Assembly (NCBI RefSeq): GCF_025211055.1
Contig: NZ_JAOARO010000018.1
Coordinates: forward strand, 1-64,000
Reading direction: 5' to 3'
Origin: Vallitalea sp.
Lineage (GTDB): Bacteria; Bacillota; Clostridia; Lachnospirales; Vallitaleaceae
Length of the DNA: 64,000 nucleotides
The stretch's first letter is position 1; each line of letters opens with the position of its first letter. The notes below the pieces were generated by a model. That model ran no database searches. It was not told the origin of the DNA and was given only the letters and a program-made list of their open reading frames with translations. Both the position numbers and the translations under genes were made by a program. Below are positions 8,232 through 16,266 of the stretch, piece after piece.

Positions 8232-8267
8232 TTTTTATACATTCAATTATATGAAGGAGGATAGTTT

Positions 8268-10718
8268 ATGGCCGAAAAAGAAAACAAGGTATCGTTTATG
8301 GAAAAAATATCAACTCAAATTATAGATAAGAGAAACGCCTTTTTTCTACTATATACAATACTAGTTATATTTTGTTTTTTTTCTAAATCATGGGTATATG
8401 TTAATAATGATATTACTACATATTTACCTGAAACAACTCAGACAAGGCAGGGGCTTACCATTATGAAAGAAGAGTTTATAACATATGGTACAGCAAAAGT
8501 CATGGTATCAAATATTACATATGACGGAGCACTATTAATAAAAGAGGATTTGGAAAAAATAGAAGGTATTTCTCGTATCGAGTTTGATGAAAGTATAGAT
8601 CATTACAAATTGGCATCAGCACTATTTTCAATATCATTCAAAGGTGAAGATAAAGATGAATTAACACAAAATGCCATGAAAGAAGTTCTCACTTATTTAG
8701 ATAACTACGATTATTATGTATCTAGTACCATTACCGAAGATTCAGTAACTTCATTAGAATCTGAAATAAAATTGGTTCTAGTTGTTGCTATATTTATTAT
8801 CTTGGGTGTTTTACTGTTCACTTCAAAAACTTATATGGAGATACCCGTTTTAGTACTTACATTTGGTATTGCTGCCATCCTTAATATGGGAACCCATTTC
8901 TTGTATGGGGAAATTTCATTTATATCTAACTCTATTGCGGTAGTTCTCCAATTAGCATTAGCTATTGATTATGCAATAATATTATGCCATAGATTCACTG
9001 AAGAAAGAGAGCATCTACCAGCAAGAGAAGCGGCAATTAAATCTCTTAGTAAAGCAATCCCTGAAATTTCGTCAAGTAGTTTGACAACAATATCTGGTTT
9101 AATGGCTTTGATGTTCATGCAGTTCAAACTAGGTTTTGATATGGGTCTTGTTTTGATAAAAGCTTTATTATTCAGCTTATTGATTGTTTTTACATTGATG
9201 CCAGGGCTATTAATGGTATTTAGTAACTCAATGGATAAAACTGTACATAAAAACTTTGTACCCTCAATAACTAATTGGGGAAAATTTGTAGTAAAGACAA
9301 GATATATCATTCCCCCACTATTTGTTGTTATTGTAGTAGGTGCACTTTACTTATCAAATCAAACTAATTATGTATATGGTTACAGTACTTTAACTACGGT
9401 AAAACAAAATGAGAATCAAATTGCTAAGAAAAAGATAGAAGAAACATTTGGAAGTAATAATCTATTAGCAATTATGGTACCAGCAGGTAATTATGAATTA
9501 GAGGGCAAGCTATTAAAGGATTATGAAAAACTAAAAGTAACAGATTCTGCTATTGGACTTGCAAACACTAAGGTAGATGACCGATATTATGTTACTGATA
9601 AATTGAATCCAAGACAATTTGCTGAATTAATAGACATAGATATAGAAATATCAAAATTACTATATCAAGCTTATGCTATCGAACAAGGCATATATAGCAA
9701 ATTGGTTAATGGGCTAGATGAATACGGCGTACCATTAATTGATATATTCATATTCCTATACAATCAAAAAGAAGCTGGATATTATAATTTAGATGAAGAA
9801 TTAGAAGACAAAATGAATGATTTGTATGAGAAGTTATATGAAGGTAAGGTTCAATTAGAAAGTGATAAATATTCAAGGTTACTACTGAATTTAAATATGC
9901 CCGAGGAAGGTGAAGAAGCTTTTAGCTGGTTAGATAAATTCCATACTATAGCAAATAAATATTATGATGAAGTACATTTCGCCGGTGCTACTACCAGTGA
10001 TAATGATTTAGGTGCATTTTTTGCAAAAGATAATCTAATTATTAGTATTCTATCAGGTTTATTTGTAATGATTATCTTATTATTTACCTTTAAATCAGCA
10101 GGTGTTCCAGTACTATTAGTTTTAACAATACAAGGTAGTATCTGGATCAACTTCTCTTTCCCAGTAATTCAAGATACCAATATATTCTTCATGAGTTATC
10201 TTGTTGTTACATCAATACAGATGGGTGCTACCATAGATTATGCTATAGTAATAACGAGCCGCTATATGGAATTAAAGAAATTCATGCCAATAAATAAGGC
10301 AATGATACAATCGCTGAATCAGGCTTTTCCTACTATCATTACATCAGGTACCATATTAGCCTCAGCTGGTATATTAATTGGTAGAATAACTTCTGACTAT
10401 GCAATATCTTCTATTGGAACCTGCTTGGGAAGAGGTACCATAATATCTCTCATCCTAGTTATGGGTGTTCTACCTCAAACACTGTTGTTTGGTGATAAAA
10501 TAATAGAAAAAACTGCTTTTGTGTTAAAAAGAAGAGGGATAATAACACTCCATAGAGGAAACCTAAAAATGAATGGTAGATTACAAGGATATATCTCAGG
10601 ATATGTAGATGCAGAAATAAAAGGTACTATTAAAGGCGAAGTAAAAGGTATCGTTGAAATGGGAAGCGTAACAACTGATAATAAAGAATTGGAAATGAGA
10701 GAGGAGGTTGTAGATTGA
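8268..10718 (+). CDS. RND/MMPL-family membrane transporter
   Basis: An 816-residue protein with two repeats of one membrane segment, a large outside loop and five membrane segments. The membrane blocks span ~18-38 with ~168-335, and ~350-372 with ~595-765. Conserved loop motifs around LQLALAIDYAIIL and IQMGATIDYAIVI include the intramembrane Asp pair used for proton coupling. MMPL proteins in Gram-positives export lipids or hydrophobic compounds. After the last membrane segment there is a soluble tail of about 60 residues with short Gly-rich repeats (GRLQGYISG, KGTIKGEVKG). GGAGG precedes the ATG. It overlaps the next gene by four bases. Confidence 0.88.
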   Translation: MAEKENKVSFMEKISTQIIDKRNAFFLLYTILVIFCFFSKSWVYVNNDITTYLPETTQTRQGLTIMKEEFITYGTAKVMVSNITYDGALLIKEDLEKIEGISRIEFDESIDHYKLASALFSISFKGEDKDELTQNAMKEVLTYLDNYDYYVSSTITEDSVTSLESEIKLVLVVAIFIILGVLLFTSKTYMEIPVLVLTFGIAAILNMGTHFLYGEISFISNSIAVVLQLALAIDYAIILCHRFTEEREHLPAREAAIKSLSKAIPEISSSSLTTISGLMALMFMQFKLGFDMGLVLIKALLFSLLIVFTLMPGLLMVFSNSMDKTVHKNFVPSITNWGKFVVKTRYIIPPLFVVIVVGALYLSNQTNYVYGYSTLTTVKQNENQIAKKKIEETFGSNNLLAIMVPAGNYELEGKLLKDYEKLKVTDSAIGLANTKVDDRYYVTDKLNPRQFAELIDIDIEISKLLYQAYAIEQGIYSKLVNGLDEYGVPLIDIFIFLYNQKEAGYYNLDEELEDKMNDLYEKLYEGKVQLESDKYSRLLLNLNMPEEGEEAFSWLDKFHTIANKYYDEVHFAGATTSDNDLGAFFAKDNLIISILSGLFVMIILLFTFKSAGVPVLLVLTIQGSIWINFSFPVIQDTNIFFMSYLVVTSIQMGATIDYAIVITSRYMELKKFMPINKAMIQSLNQAFPTIITSGTILASAGILIGRITSDYAISSIGTCLGRGTIISLILVMGVLPQTLLFGDKIIEKTAFVLKRRGIITLHRGNLKMNGRLQGYISGYVDAEIKGTIKGEVKGIVEMGSVTTDNKELEMREEVVD

Positions 10719-13700
10719 ATAGATTAAAAATATATCTATCTGTTGTATTATCAATGATTTTGTTATTCATTTTTAATTATGATTCTACAGCAGAAACAAC
10801 TTCTAATGTCATATACATACATACAGCTGAAGATTTACAAAAACTTTCAGAGAATTGTCGTCTAGATACCTTCTCCGAGAACATTATTGTTACATTGACA
10901 GGTGATATTGACCTATCTTCTATATCTTTTGAACCAATATCAAGCTTCTCTGGTATCTTTGAAGGAAGCAACTATACAATAAGTGGTTTAAACGCCTATG
11001 ATTCAGGTTCAAACCAAGGATTATTTAGGTATCTACAAGAAGATGGTATAATTAAAAATCTTACTGTTAAGGGCAATATTAGACCTAGCGGTACTAAGAA
11101 AGAAATAGGTGGGATTGTTGGTACTAACAGAGGACAAATCATTAATTGTTCTTTTAATGGAACTGTCAAAGGTTCAACCAGTATTGGAGGCATAGCTGGA
11201 TACAATGATAAATCAGGGAAAATTGCAAGTTGTAAGTCTTATGGTCTAATCATTGGAGAACATTACATAGGCGGAGTTGTTGGTCAAAATGTAGGTTATA
11301 TATCAGAATGTGTCAATAACAGTAAAGTAAATACAACAAATGATGGTAAAGTTCAAAACAAAGATATGGCATCTTATAATATAAAAGACATGAATATAGA
11401 ACAACTAAATTCAACTGAAAATATTGATGCTTTAACTGATACTGGGGGAGTTGTTGGTTATAATCAAGGTATTGTAGAATTAAGTGAAAATCGTGGTGCT
11501 ATAGGTTATCATCATGTAGGTTATAATATAGGTGGCATAATCGGTAGACAATCTGGTTATGTATCTGATTGTAATAATTATGGTATAGTCAAAGGACGTA
11601 AAGATATAGGTGGTGTCATCGGTCAAGCAGAACCCTCTATCCGCTTATTATTCTCAGAAGACACCTTAGAACAGATTGATAATGAGTTAGGTACTCTTAA
11701 TAAACAAGTCAATCAATTAATTAATGACAGCGAAAAATCTTCACAAACTATTTCAAGCAGACTGGATAATCTAAATAACCTTACTTCATCTGCTTCTAAT
11801 AAAATGCATGACCTAGCTAATTATACAACTAATTATATTGATGATTCAACAGCCGTAGCTAATACTGGTATAGATAGAATACGTCATACTATGGACCAAT
11901 TGGAGCCTATTCTTGATTCATTTGTAAATGCATCTGAAGAATTAACTAAAGGTTTTGATGAATTCAGAAAAGGCTTTGACCAACTTGCAAAATCATCAAA
12001 AGATATCAATAATAGCTTAAAAGATGTAGCTGATGCTTTTGATGACCTACATTTGGCGCATAACAATGCTAATACAGCTTTGGATAATATCACTGCAGCA
12101 ACTAAAATCATTCAAAAAGCTACTGAGAATTCTGATGATATGGAAAAAGCTATGAAAAAACTCAAAAATGGTTTGAGCGACCTTGATGATGCAACACAGG
12201 CAGGTATTAAAGCACTCGAAAAAATAGCAGATGCTTTAAAAGAAGTTGATAATCCACTAAGTACAGATTGGGATAAAATAAGTCAAGATATACAAGTTAA
12301 TCTTAAAACCATGAAAGAAAAGTATTCTAGTGCTAATACCAAAATAACTTTTGCTCTTGATGTATTTTATAAAGAATATACTGATGATCAAGCTCTTATT
12401 AGACAAGCATTTACATATTTTAACTTTGCTATTAAAGATTTGAAAGATCTATCTACTAACATGAATGATGCCTTAATAGATATGGAATATGCCTTAGAAG
12501 ACTTAGATCTTGCAACAGATGCTATCACTGAATCTATGGAATATATTTCCAAAGGTATGAAATATTTCACTAATTGTTCTACAGAATGTACCAATGCTAT
12601 GACAGATATAAAATCAATAGTTGAAGAGATTAATGATTATGAGAAATTACATATACCTAAGTTAAAAGATTATGTAACTGAAACAAGTGATTCCTTATTT
12701 CATGAAATAGATAGTATATCTGAAGAATTATCTATACTTAATGAAGAAGTAAAAGGATCATCTGATTCTTTTCACAAAAATATAAGAGCTGTCAACAAAC
12801 AGTTTGAGGTAATTGTTGATATTATAAGAGATGGATTGAATTCCTTATCTTTTGACAACAAAGATTTGTTTGAGGATATTTCAGACCAATCTCCAGAAGA
12901 AGAATCTATCAAGGAAAAAGGTGTAGTAAAAGAATGTTATAATGAAGGTGATGTCCTTGGAGATGTAAATATAGGCGGTATTATAGGTTCAATGGCAATT
13001 GAATATGACTTTGACCCCGAAGATGATATCATCAATAAAGGTAATACATCTTTCAATTTCAAATACCAGACAAAAGCTTTACTGATGTCATCTATCAACA
13101 AAGGTAATATTCAATCAAAAAAGAATTATGCTGGCGGTATAATAGGCAGAATGGATTTAGGTTTACTTATTAAAAGCGAAAATTATGGTTTTATAGAAAG
13201 TCTAGATGGTAATTACACAGGAGGTATAGTTGGTTCATCTAGTAGCGTAATTAGACAATGTTACTCTCTAAGCGAGCTTAGCGGTAGAGATTATGTGGGC
13301 GGAATAGCTGGATATGCTACTGACATTTATAATTGTTTTTCATTAGTAAAGGTTAATAAGTCTAATGAATTCACAGGTGCTATAGCAGGTGACATAAGTG
13401 GTAAAATGTTAAATAATTATTTTGTTAAAGGTAATATTGAAGGTGTAGACAGTATAAGTTATGGTGAAAAAGCTATTCCTCAATCTTATGGTGAATTTAT
13501 TCTAAATGAAGAACTACCAGAATCATTTCAATCATTCAAATTAACCTTTGTTGTTGATGATGAAATAGTTAAAGAAATACCATTTGAATATGGAGATTCA
13601 CTTGATGATAATAAACTCCCTGCAATACCTAAAAAAGAAGGATACTATAGTAACTGGCCATCATGTAATTATAACAACTTAACCTTTTCAAAAAAACTGG

Positions 13701-14176
13701 TAGCAATATATACACCCATGATACAAGTATTACCATCAGATAGTAACAATCCTCATCCCAAGTTGTTGGTAGAAGGAGCATTTGACCTTGATGATACTTT
13801 AAAAATAGAACAAGTAGAATCACCTACAAAAATGATTGCTACTCATAAAATCATTGAAGAGTGGTGTGTACAATTAAGTAAAGTATCTAATGAATCTTAC
13901 ACTTATAGAATTAAGAAGCCTAAAACAAAGAAAAAAATTATCTTATATAAAAAAGAAGGCAACAAATGGAAAATTGCTAAATCAAAAGTAGATGGTAGCT
14001 ATCTAACCTTTGAATCTAACTTAAATACCTTTAAGTTAGCATTTGTAGAAAAAAATATTGATATAAAATTATATATAGGTATGGGTTCTATCTTGATTAT
14101 GATACTTCTCATTTTTAAAAGAAAAATTAAAAAAAGAGCAAAGTCAAAAAAATATAAAATAAGACCTGTAGAATAA
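10715..14176 (+). CDS. surface protein: GLUG repeats, long coiled coil, GLUG repeats, C-terminal membrane anchor
   Basis: A 1153-residue secreted protein. The start is a TTG overlapping the transporter stop (TTGA), with GAGGAGG upstream. Order: signal segment 1-27; GLUG-type repeats (GGIVG/GGIAG with CxNxG) about 128-300; a long, Gly-poor helical coiled-coil region about 305-725; a second GLUG block about 728-910; a small beta domain resembling Listeria-Bacteroides (Flg_new-like) repeats about 940-995; a membrane helix about 1117-1135; and a Lys/Arg-rich tail. This gives an extracellular protein anchored once in the membrane. Tight coupling to the RND gene suggests they act together, perhaps as an outside adaptor or scaffold for export. 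Function is unproven. Confidence 0.75.
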   Translation: MNRLKIYLSVVLSMILLFIFNYDSTAETTSNVIYIHTAEDLQKLSENCRLDTFSENIIVTLTGDIDLSSISFEPISSFSGIFEGSNYTISGLNAYDSGSNQGLFRYLQEDGIIKNLTVKGNIRPSGTKKEIGGIVGTNRGQIINCSFNGTVKGSTSIGGIAGYNDKSGKIASCKSYGLIIGEHYIGGVVGQNVGYISECVNNSKVNTTNDGKVQNKDMASYNIKDMNIEQLNSTENIDALTDTGGVVGYNQGIVELSENRGAIGYHHVGYNIGGIIGRQSGYVSDCNNYGIVKGRKDIGGVIGQAEPSIRLLFSEDTLEQIDNELGTLNKQVNQLINDSEKSSQTISSRLDNLNNLTSSASNKMHDLANYTTNYIDDSTAVANTGIDRIRHTMDQLEPILDSFVNASEELTKGFDEFRKGFDQLAKSSKDINNSLKDVADAFDDLHLAHNNANTALDNITAATKIIQKATENSDDMEKAMKKLKNGLSDLDDATQAGIKALEKIADALKEVDNPLSTDWDKISQDIQVNLKTMKEKYSSANTKITFALDVFYKEYTDDQALIRQAFTYFNFAIKDLKDLSTNMNDALIDMEYALEDLDLATDAITESMEYISKGMKYFTNCSTECTNAMTDIKSIVEEINDYEKLHIPKLKDYVTETSDSLFHEIDSISEELSILNEEVKGSSDSFHKNIRAVNKQFEVIVDIIRDGLNSLSFDNKDLFEDISDQSPEEESIKEKGVVKECYNEGDVLGDVNIGGIIGSMAIEYDFDPEDDIINKGNTSFNFKYQTKALLMSSINKGNIQSKKNYAGGIIGRMDLGLLIKSENYGFIESLDGNYTGGIVGSSSSVIRQCYSLSELSGRDYVGGIAGYATDIYNCFSLVKVNKSNEFTGAIAGDISGKMLNNYFVKGNIEGVDSISYGEKAIPQSYGEFILNEELPESFQSFKLTFVVDDEIVKEIPFEYGDSLDDNKLPAIPKKEGYYSNWPSCNYNNLTFSKKLVAIYTPMIQVLPSDSNNPHPKLLVEGAFDLDDTLKIEQVESPTKMIATHKIIEEWCVQLSKVSNESYTYRIKKPKTKKKIILYKKEGNKWKIAKSKVDGSYLTFESNLNTFKLAFVEKNIDIKLYIGMGSILIMILLIFKRKIKKRAKSKKYKIRPVE

Positions 14177-14197
14177 AGTTATGTGTATCAATTATAA

Positions 14198-14275
14198 TGG
14201 GGTGTATCACAAGTGAATCTTATATTACAATTAGTTTTCCTAATCGTAAATATAATGTATTGTGATACAGCCCCA
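14198..14275. repeat. long imperfect hairpin, arms TGGGG-GTATCACAA / TTGTGATAC-CCCCA
   Basis: The outer arms (14198-14212 and 14260-14275) pair almost perfectly, and the interior pairs further (TTAC-ATTAG with CTAAT-GTAA). It lies between convergent genes. Neither side has a strong T-run, so it is not a textbook terminator. The arms resemble those of the hairpin at 53695-53760 (both read GGGGCT, then TC, then AATACATT on one strand), suggesting a dispersed hairpin family. Confidence 0.6.
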
Positions 14276-14405: not shown

Positions 14406-16187
14406 TTATTTCCTAGTTATTTCAAAGTATGGAAACTCTACATCACTCTTATATGATCTGATACCAAATGCTCCTGAAAAACCTGGTATATATTTTGCTC
14501 CATATGAAGTATGTGAACCTGAAGTACTACCTAGATACTTATTGTTAATAACAACAGCATCTTCCTTTTCGCCTTCTAATGCTACAGTCAAGTTATACAT
14601 TGAACTTCCAAACATGTAACTAGTCTTAACAGTAACTTTTACACGACAATCATAAGGATCTATATAATCTGGTATATTGGCAGATAGTAAACCATTCCAT
14701 TTATTATTGGATCTTCCTATAATAACCGTTTTATTTTTAGGTGCTATACCTATATAGTACCCATAGTATTGATCATTACCAGTTCCTGGCTTTCTTACTC
14801 CAAGTACTATTCCTGCATTTGCAGAGTCGGCATATGTATTTGTTGTCTTAACCTGAAATCTACAAACAACAGTACGCATAGAAATATCAAGCTGATAATT
14901 ATCTCCATTAGAATCACAAGCTAATAACACTGGACCGTTACCAGTCTTTATATCATTCATAGTTGAACAAGGATTTAGTCCTAATACTTGCTGTTGAATT
15001 ATCTTAGACTCACTTTCTCCATAGAAATTAAAATACTTAGTTGAAGTGGCATCTCCTTTATTATTACCATAAAGAAGTCTATTCTCAAATTCCATAGTTG
15101 CTGTTGGCGGATTTAGTTTATTATCAATCATAACGTTTGCATTTTCAGCAGTAACCATTCCTTCAAGAGTACATACTAATTCTAATTCTTTTGTATATAC
15201 ACTTACAGTATCTTCATATGGATATACTAAGATATTACCTTTATAGGTTCCACTATTAATAAGAGCAATAGTTGATACCTCATAACCAAAATACTCATCT
15301 AAAGAAATTGATTTATTAGTTGCAACATCATAGCTGTAAGAATTAGTACCTGTTGCATCATTACTGTTTTTATTAACTACCTTATAATAAATCTTAGAAT
15401 TATTTGCATCATTTGCATAGACACCTAGAACTGAATTATCTCCTGCTTTTATAGTCTTTGTCTTATTATTAGCATTATATGTAATTGTAAAGTTTTCCCC
15501 ATATGCATCTGCTTTATAGGTATATCCTTTGGATAAATCAATATTTCTTGTGCCTTCTTTCAGATCTTTTTCATCTGAGTAGATTCTTTTAATAACGATA
15601 ACCGCTTGTTCTATTGGTGCATTATCTGTTGGGTTAAAGCTACCATTGCTACCTTTCATTATATTATTTTCATTAATATAATCTACAGCTTTTAAAGCCC
15701 AGTTAGCTATTAAATTCTTATCATTAATTGTTAAGACTTCATCAGTGCTTTTCATTTCTTCTCCAAAAAAATTATATACTTCACTAAGAGTCCTATAATA
15801 CATAACAGCCATCTGCTGTCTTGTTACTAATTCATTCGGTTTAGCCTGTTTGTTTGAACCTAACATTATCCCTAGTGCATTAGCTTTTAACACGTCAATA
15901 TCATCTGTATCATCAAAAGTGTCTATTGGTGCCTGTTTAACCACTTCACCTGTTATTGTTTCATACATTTTTACAACAAGTGATGCGAATTCTGCACGTG
16001 TAATTTTATCTTTCAAATTACTTGACATAAGTTTATAAGGCATAAGGTCATAGTAATAAGCCTCTTCGATCTCAGGTTGTGCCCATGAACTTGCTGATGA
16101 TACATCCCATCCCCCTGCAAAACTTGTTATACTTAATGCCATTACTACTAGCATAAGTATAATTATCTTGTGATTTTTCTTGAACAT
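14406..16187 (-). CDS. S-layer homology (SLH) domain surface protein
   Basis: The ATG at 16187 is chosen because AAGGAGG precedes it and it gives a proper signal peptide (residues 1-24, ending near SFAGG). Three SLH repeats follow (about 30-80, 85-140 and 150-205, with TRAEFA and TRQQMA), which bind pyruvylated wall polysaccharide. A beta-rich middle region follows, then a C-terminal domain (about 400-593) with the look of a concanavalin/LamG-type lectin fold. No catalytic motif is evident, so it is a wall-attached binding or structural protein. Downstream, the same frame stays open after the TAA for a Tyr/Trp-rich stretch to 14322, suggesting recent C-terminal truncation or readthrough. Confidence 0.85.
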   Translation of the reverse strand: MFKKNHKIIILMLVVMALSITSFAGGWDVSSASSWAQPEIEEAYYYDLMPYKLMSSNLKDKITRAEFASLVVKMYETITGEVVKQAPIDTFDDTDDIDVLKANALGIMLGSNKQAKPNELVTRQQMAVMYYRTLSEVYNFFGEEMKSTDEVLTINDKNLIANWALKAVDYINENNIMKGSNGSFNPTDNAPIEQAVIVIKRIYSDEKDLKEGTRNIDLSKGYTYKADAYGENFTITYNANNKTKTIKAGDNSVLGVYANDANNSKIYYKVVNKNSNDATGTNSYSYDVATNKSISLDEYFGYEVSTIALINSGTYKGNILVYPYEDTVSVYTKELELVCTLEGMVTAENANVMIDNKLNPPTATMEFENRLLYGNNKGDATSTKYFNFYGESESKIIQQQVLGLNPCSTMNDIKTGNGPVLLACDSNGDNYQLDISMRTVVCRFQVKTTNTYADSANAGIVLGVRKPGTGNDQYYGYYIGIAPKNKTVIIGRSNNKWNGLLSANIPDYIDPYDCRVKVTVKTSYMFGSSMYNLTVALEGEKEDAVVINNKYLGSTSGSHTSYGAKYIPGFSGAFGIRSYKSDVEFPYFEITRK

Positions 16188-16266
16188 ATTATTCCTCCTT
16201 GTAGGTTTTAATACTATACAATTTACTAAATATCTTTCACACATAAGTTTATTATATATTTTACCA

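Follow-up and report, generated by a model that had tools for sequence, protein, structure and literature searches.

Coiled coils that reach outward from MMPL transporters have been described in mycobacteria, where MmpL5 carries a 196-residue coiled coil that is needed for efflux and that modelling shows as a six-helix tube of 13 nm (PMC12501195) and where the coil of MmpL10 drives trimerisation (PMC12183618). These mycobacterial tubes act in cis (PMC12501195, PMC12183618). Periplasmic adaptor proteins also occur in Gram-positives (PMC4446572) and the haloarchaeal permease HVO_A0467 of the resistance-nodulation-division (RND) type is encoded with a C-terminally anchored, fibre-like protein, HVO_A0466, a linkage that is widespread (PMC11349517). 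Why RND pumps of bacteria without an outer membrane should have an outer subunit, and where their cargo goes, is poorly understood. Here we describe a pair of genes at positions 8268-14176 of a stretch of 64,000 nucleotides (the window) from the 3.78 Mb genome of Vallitalea sp. (contig NZ_JAOARO010000018.1), the first encoding an MMPL transporter and the second an exported protein with GLUG repeats and a long helical coiled-coil region, hereafter the partner. An earlier note on this DNA called such a pair a new arrangement, which is overstated because MMPL coiled-coil extensions, adaptor proteins in Gram-positives and anchored RND-permease partners are already described.

Linkage and natural fusion of the two genes

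Judged from sequence comparison, the partner is almost certainly a dedicated subunit and would be a working part of the pump, because the two genes are linked across Clostridia and sometimes fused. When named genomes were scanned with the partner family, 280 relatives came up; the 80 best were kept for analysis, all with titles of Clostridia-type bacteria or unclassified. In 79 of these 80 loci, the gene immediately upstream, in the same orientation, encodes an MMPL of the same subfamily, and the one left over (L106) is a contig of 3 kb that a partner fragment fills. Starting from the transporter, a second, independent set of 391 genomes from the class contains 46 MMPLs of the subfamily; the partner adjoins 44, and the remaining two stop some 30 bases or less from the end of their contig. 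The linkage, one partner to one pump, is essentially obligate in both directions. Furthermore, a single reading frame of 1912-2003 residues encodes the MMPL together with a complete partner in L175-L178, four genomes that belong to one family. A lack of co-occurrence in other genomes, which the earlier note named as grounds for rejecting its proposal, was thus looked for and not seen. The coupling of the two genes proposed in that note is therefore supported, by the linkage as well as by the single-chain fusions.

In the L175 fusion (1912 residues) the signal sequence of the partner has become an internal hydrophobic segment (752-770) which, from its sequence, would return the chain to the outside. 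The fusions constitute a single clade nested among unfused pairs, beside L057 and L102, the only loci where the cytoplasmic tail of the MMPL is reduced, to 7-10 residues. The sequences thus suggest that the tail was lost before fusion, given that the fusion clade adjoins these tail-less relatives.

Clostridia of gut and sediment are among the many carriers of the pair, which is widespread in Lachnospiraceae and Oscillospiraceae, is also found in a congeneric genome (G002, locus L035), and in one named genome is annotated as an MMPL family transporter and a hypothetical protein. Overlaps between the two genes at homologous loci depend on the choice of the longest open reading frame and are inexact. 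Across the loci compared, no conserved third gene or substrate pathway was found beside the pair; since the neighbouring genes otherwise vary, the conserved unit is two genes. A minority of loci have a TetR regulator (TetR_C_8) adjoining the pair or close by (9 of 30 upstream proteins scanned), and such regulators are found beside the MMPL gene at L036, L038, L040, L048, L053, L093, L097 and others as well as in Monoglobus (L248). TetR neighbours are common for exporters.

Domain layout of the pump and its partner

The features of the locus, all on the plus strand, are as follows, with the basis of each in brackets.

8255-8260: ribosome-binding site AGGAGG of the MMPL gene (sequence)
8268-10718: MMPL/RND transporter gene, 816 residues (open reading frame, Pfam MMPL, RND-fold model)
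8967-8972: Asp234-Tyr235, proton-relay pair of transmembrane helix 4 (TM4) (invariant in 59/59 homologues)
9573-9863: insert in outer domain 2 of the MMPL, ~95 residues (about 436-532), candidate docking site (alignment)
10236-10241: Asp657-Tyr658, second proton-relay pair, in TM10 (invariant in 59/59 homologues)
10545-10676: C-terminal cytoplasmic tail of the MMPL, rich in beta structure, residues 760-803 (model)
10702-10707: ribosome-binding site AGGAGG of the partner gene, within the end of the MMPL coding region (sequence)
10715-14176: GLUG/coiled-coil partner gene, 1153 residues, TTG start (open reading frame, Pfam Glug, family alignment)
10715-10795: N-terminal signal sequence of the partner, residues 1-27 (hydrophobic 4-22)
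10805-11644: first part of the GLUG beta-solenoid, residues 31-310 (model, local confidence mostly >90)
11657-12841: helical insert, residues 315-709 (period-3.5 power, z 20.5; model)
12917-13429: second part of the GLUG beta-solenoid, residues 735-905 (model; conserved across 58 homologues)
13520-14050: C-terminal beta domain, residues 936-1112 (model)
14057-14113: single C-terminal membrane helix, residues 1115-1133, then a basic tail (hydropathy; model helix 1117-1145)

The open reading frames confirm both genes and their four-base overlap, TTGA, which holds the TGA stop of the MMPL gene (10716-10718) and the TTG start of the partner gene (10715-10717), seven bases behind its AGGAGG. The family assignments of the earlier note also hold (Pfam MMPL, in two stretches covering both halves, E 5.3e-39; Pfam Glug over the cut-off, E 8.2e-13), as does the one C-terminal membrane helix. 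Its coiled coil of about 420 residues needs revision: the heptad signal is strong, and the region has ~395 residues in about nine helices. The insert in outer domain 2 and the cytoplasmic tail of the MMPL, together with the beta domain of the partner, are features that the note did not contain.

The MMPL protein is a member of the RND superfamily, MMPL branch (HAE2/HAE3-like), by its domain, its fold and its Asp-Tyr pairs, and reaches no subfamily cut-off in NCBIfam. Its model shows a complete RND fold over residues 9-752, with a mean predicted local distance difference test score (pLDDT) of 80. The best VIA matches of this model are M. smegmatis MSMEG_3496 (Z 43.2), MmpL5 (43.1) and MmpL4 (42.6), and it also matches MmpL3 (Z 40.7) and AcrB, both near 41. 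The Asp-Tyr pairs of TM4 and TM10 we take to be the proton-coupling residues, as in MmpL3. The tail shows, in the window and in L031-L114, an alternating V/G pattern (e.g. VNGRVRGYVSGIVDANIHG) and is conserved in the subfamily; perhaps it polymerises or has a binding partner in the cytoplasm. A bactofilin-like tail was suspected from the sequence and found no support in Pfam, where the tails of four homologues matched no family.

For the partner, the model has a mean pLDDT of 80 and a predicted template modelling score (pTM) of 0.57. Its GLUG parts match solved beta-helices over 239-259 residues (VIA Z 26.0 to 3n6z and 25.8 to IgA1 protease). The earlier note placed two separate GLUG blocks around the coil. 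GLUG repeats do flank the helices, but because single beta-helices align across both parts (7o78 over 330 residues, 31-939; 7xz8 over 331, 31-904; and 1ofm), the two blocks are probably one beta-solenoid interrupted by the helical insert, a reading which, as a model, replaces the layout with two separate blocks. Within the insert, the power of hydrophobicity at period 3.5 stands 20 standard deviations over composition shuffles, and the monomer model folds it into outer helix pairs and a six-helix antiparallel bundle. The helices on the outside (near 309-376 and 645-710) find their matches among long antiparallel helix pairs, while residues 394-638 match 8qae, a designed single-chain antiparallel six-helix barrel (Z 16.6, root-mean-square deviation 2.9). 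A simple hairpin like that of AcrA was rejected given this six-helix match and the number of helices in the monomer model, and matches to helix bundles such as alpha-pore toxins were treated as a common arrangement. Compared with solved structures by sequence, the partner gave generic coiled coils only, and a Foldseek search gave no E below 0.001. In the homologues the insert is mostly about 405-420 residues long (~410; range 335-568) and is kept in nearly all.

In one Oscillospiraceae clade (L060, L099, L100 and L105) the partner continues after about residue 1120 with another membrane helix and an additional outer domain of ~380 residues, with two apparent repeats, which matches no known family. 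A lipid-carrier domain in this extension was considered and is unsupported in Pfam, NCBIfam and sequences of the Protein Data Bank (PDB).

The insert of the transporter sets the partnered MMPLs apart. Related MMPLs that have no GLUG partner skip it in every case (22 of 22), their alignments to the subfamily profile stopping at 434-450 and restarting at 529-538, whereas the GLUG-partnered MMPLs examined, fusions included, align through it without a gap. Its length is steady (102-108 columns across 436-537), its column conservation is 0.68 compared with 0.74 for the membrane core, and in the model its ~95-100 residues contain short helices, the longest of 21 residues. Moreover, in a tree built leaving the insert out, the partnered MMPLs are one clade, separated from the rest by a branch with a support of 100 in the Shimodaira-Hasegawa-like approximate likelihood ratio test (SH-aLRT). 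If the partner docks on the pump, these alignments make the insert the obvious candidate site.

Coiled-coil proteins of other types lie beside other MMPLs. In the same genome (L220, 3248-7409; G000:C61) an MMPL is followed by a 675-residue secreted protein with xxxLxxG heptads (TIGR03057, 9e-11), a family that the GLUG partner does not match. Among 20 related MMPLs of ~690 residues from the phylum (L228-L247), which are the nearest relatives of the GLUG-partnered subfamily and not a random sample, 18 have enough downstream sequence, and all 18 are directly followed by a secreted xxxLxxG coiled-coil protein, that of L231 being split by a frameshift. With L220, this makes 19 of 19 decidable MMPLs with such a partner within a few bases. 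Like the GLUG-type pair, these systems consist of an MMPL and then a secreted coiled-coil protein; their MMPLs (~695 residues), however, do not have the outer-domain insert, and their partners (500-800 residues) have another N-terminal domain, with a KDETVY motif, and no GLUG repeats. A third type (L227, 2263-6694; G219) consists of a 767-residue MMPL and a 711-residue secreted protein with an SMC-like coiled coil. From these xxxLxxG and SMC-like partners, an outer coiled-coil partner would seem generally to accompany Clostridial MMPL pumps, the GLUG type being one branch. Our literature search found no paper on the MMPL-xxxLxxG pair; the arrangement is apparently undescribed and is worth a separate finding.

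Downstream of the Vallitalea pair, the partner gene converges with a gene for an SLH-domain surface protein (14406-16244, minus strand), which adjoins the pair also in G004 (L032) and not in G003. Between the two lies a strong hairpin (14197-14275; folding z -6.1; stem of 14-16 bp), present in one copy in the genome and without a T run, which is perhaps a two-way terminator.

Proposed mechanism and competing explanations

We consider it probable, with moderate confidence, that the two proteins form a two-subunit transporter in which the pump is combined with an obligate outer subunit guiding cargo outward. The MMPL protein would be a proton-driven RND pump in the membrane, and the partner, exported through its signal sequence, would then be anchored beside it by the C-terminal helix. 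The partner would probably dock on the partner-specific insert in the outer domain of the pump, so that its beta-solenoid would sit over the pump while the long arm of helices would reach out into the wall and pass on or release a hydrophobic or amphiphilic, possibly lipid-like, cargo outward across an envelope thought to lack an outer membrane. The 'export adaptor' of the earlier note is thus a reasonable name for its putative role, and a wall-spanning adaptor or conduit is plausible. By analogy, MmpL5 and MmpL10 would be the nearest worked examples.

A bolder proposal is that the partner forms a conduit through the wall of bacteria without an outer membrane, as a six-helix barrel, made of one chain or of an oligomer, above the RND pump, and hence an in-trans counterpart of the in-cis tube of MmpL5, and that Clostridial MMPL pumps as a rule have dedicated coiled-coil outer subunits. 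This we regard as tentative and rather doubtful.

Several observations weigh against the two-subunit transporter with a cargo-guiding outer subunit. The arm is modelled with a pLDDT of about 60-84, and below 50 at the hinges, so that its length, its direction or pose and any hollowness are tentative. It is also less conserved than the solenoid (0.34-0.36 compared with 0.60-0.62), which is odd for a precise conduit, and the genes around the pair change from locus to locus. Vallitalea, finally, is described as Gram-variable (PMC6163223); the thickness of its wall is thus uncertain, and the Gram-positive wall assumed in the earlier note is to be softened.

The lower conservation of the arm is what keeps alive the main rival explanation, in which the partner is a dedicated subunit and no conduit, and would assemble or oligomerise the pump or tether it to wall glycans through the beta-solenoid. 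We hold this possible, if on the unlikely side. The linkage and the fusions fit it equally well, and the solenoid is the conserved part; besides the IgA1 protease domains, the solenoid matches include polysaccharide-degrading or glycan-binding beta-helices, and MmpS5 is needed for the trimerisation and activity of MmpL5 (PMC12501195). Against it stands the retention of so large a helical insert in nearly all homologues, and since other MMPLs too have coiled-coil partners of another type, the coil would be a shared useful part.

A role for the partner as a lipid-transfer bridge, in a system that would move lipid inward or remodel membrane lipids, appears improbable. RND/MMPL proteins do handle lipids, the direction of transport is not readable from sequence, and the loci compared showed no neighbouring biosynthetic genes that would make a cargo for export; the TetR neighbours, however, are more usual for exporters and, to our knowledge, known MMPL/HAE transporters export or flip outward. 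Still less probable is a client role for the partner, in which it would be a surface protein needing the MMPL for its release or folding, in the manner of SecDF, an RND protein that assists secretion. The partner is indeed an exported protein of surface type with GLUG repeats, but it is present once per pump, retains its membrane anchor, has a matching insert on the pump and, in the fusions, is held on the same chain. That the genes are merely co-expressed and the proteins never touch, as for an adhesin beside an efflux pump, is hardly credible, since the linkage is near-invariant over many families despite changing neighbours, and the genes overlap and have fused.

As a two-subunit transporter, the pair would turn the question of the outer subunit into a defined experiment, and the natural single-chain fusion should suit structural work. 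The families carrying the pair, Lachnospiraceae and Oscillospiraceae, include gut bacteria. If the wider pattern is true, coiled-coil outer subunits would be a general part of Clostridial MMPL pumps.

Comparison with described systems

Among solved folds, the GLUG/beta-helix domains of IgA1 protease come closest to the solenoid (Z about 25-26 over 239-259 residues); the similarity is one of fold only, and the partner matches no Pfam protease domain. As in AcrAB-TolC, an RND pump of the same fold is combined with an outer subunit having helical and beta parts. In contrast to that system, the beta part of the Clostridial partner is a beta-solenoid, no outer-membrane channel gene is conserved alongside, and no adaptor-family domain (HlyD/lipoyl) is found among the best 25 of 33 Pfam matches (E up to 1) or among the NCBIfam matches.

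The mycobacterial MmpS5-MmpL5, MmpL4 and MmpL10 systems likewise combine an MMPL transporter with an extracytoplasmic coiled coil, and MmpL4 and MmpL5 are among the top structural matches of the pump. Mycobacteria possess an outer mycomembrane. Their coil is built into the MmpL itself, as an insert of 196-255 residues in its outer domain 2, whereas in Vallitalea ~395 helical residues are carried on a separate anchored beta-solenoid protein, which is C-terminal to the pump in the fusions. Unlike the MmpS-MmpL systems, the pair has no adjacent MmpS-like gene, its partner is of 1153 residues, and no third gene is conserved.

The haloarchaeal HVO_A0467/HVO_A0466 pair resembles the present one in an overlap with the RND gene (of one base there), in a secreted, C-terminally anchored partner and in cells thought to be one-membraned (PMC11349517). 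Conserved adjacency and an exported partner with a C-terminal membrane helix are both found for the Vallitalea pair. As described, HVO_A0466 is set apart by four immunoglobulin-like domains, the lack of a GLUG solenoid and a position upstream of the RND gene, and, unlike for the Clostridial pair, no fusion is reported in the text consulted (PMC11349517). No paper naming MMPL together with GLUG was found in the literature searched. Compared with these systems, three features are new: the partner family, the partner-specific insert of the transporter and the fusion of the two proteins into one chain.

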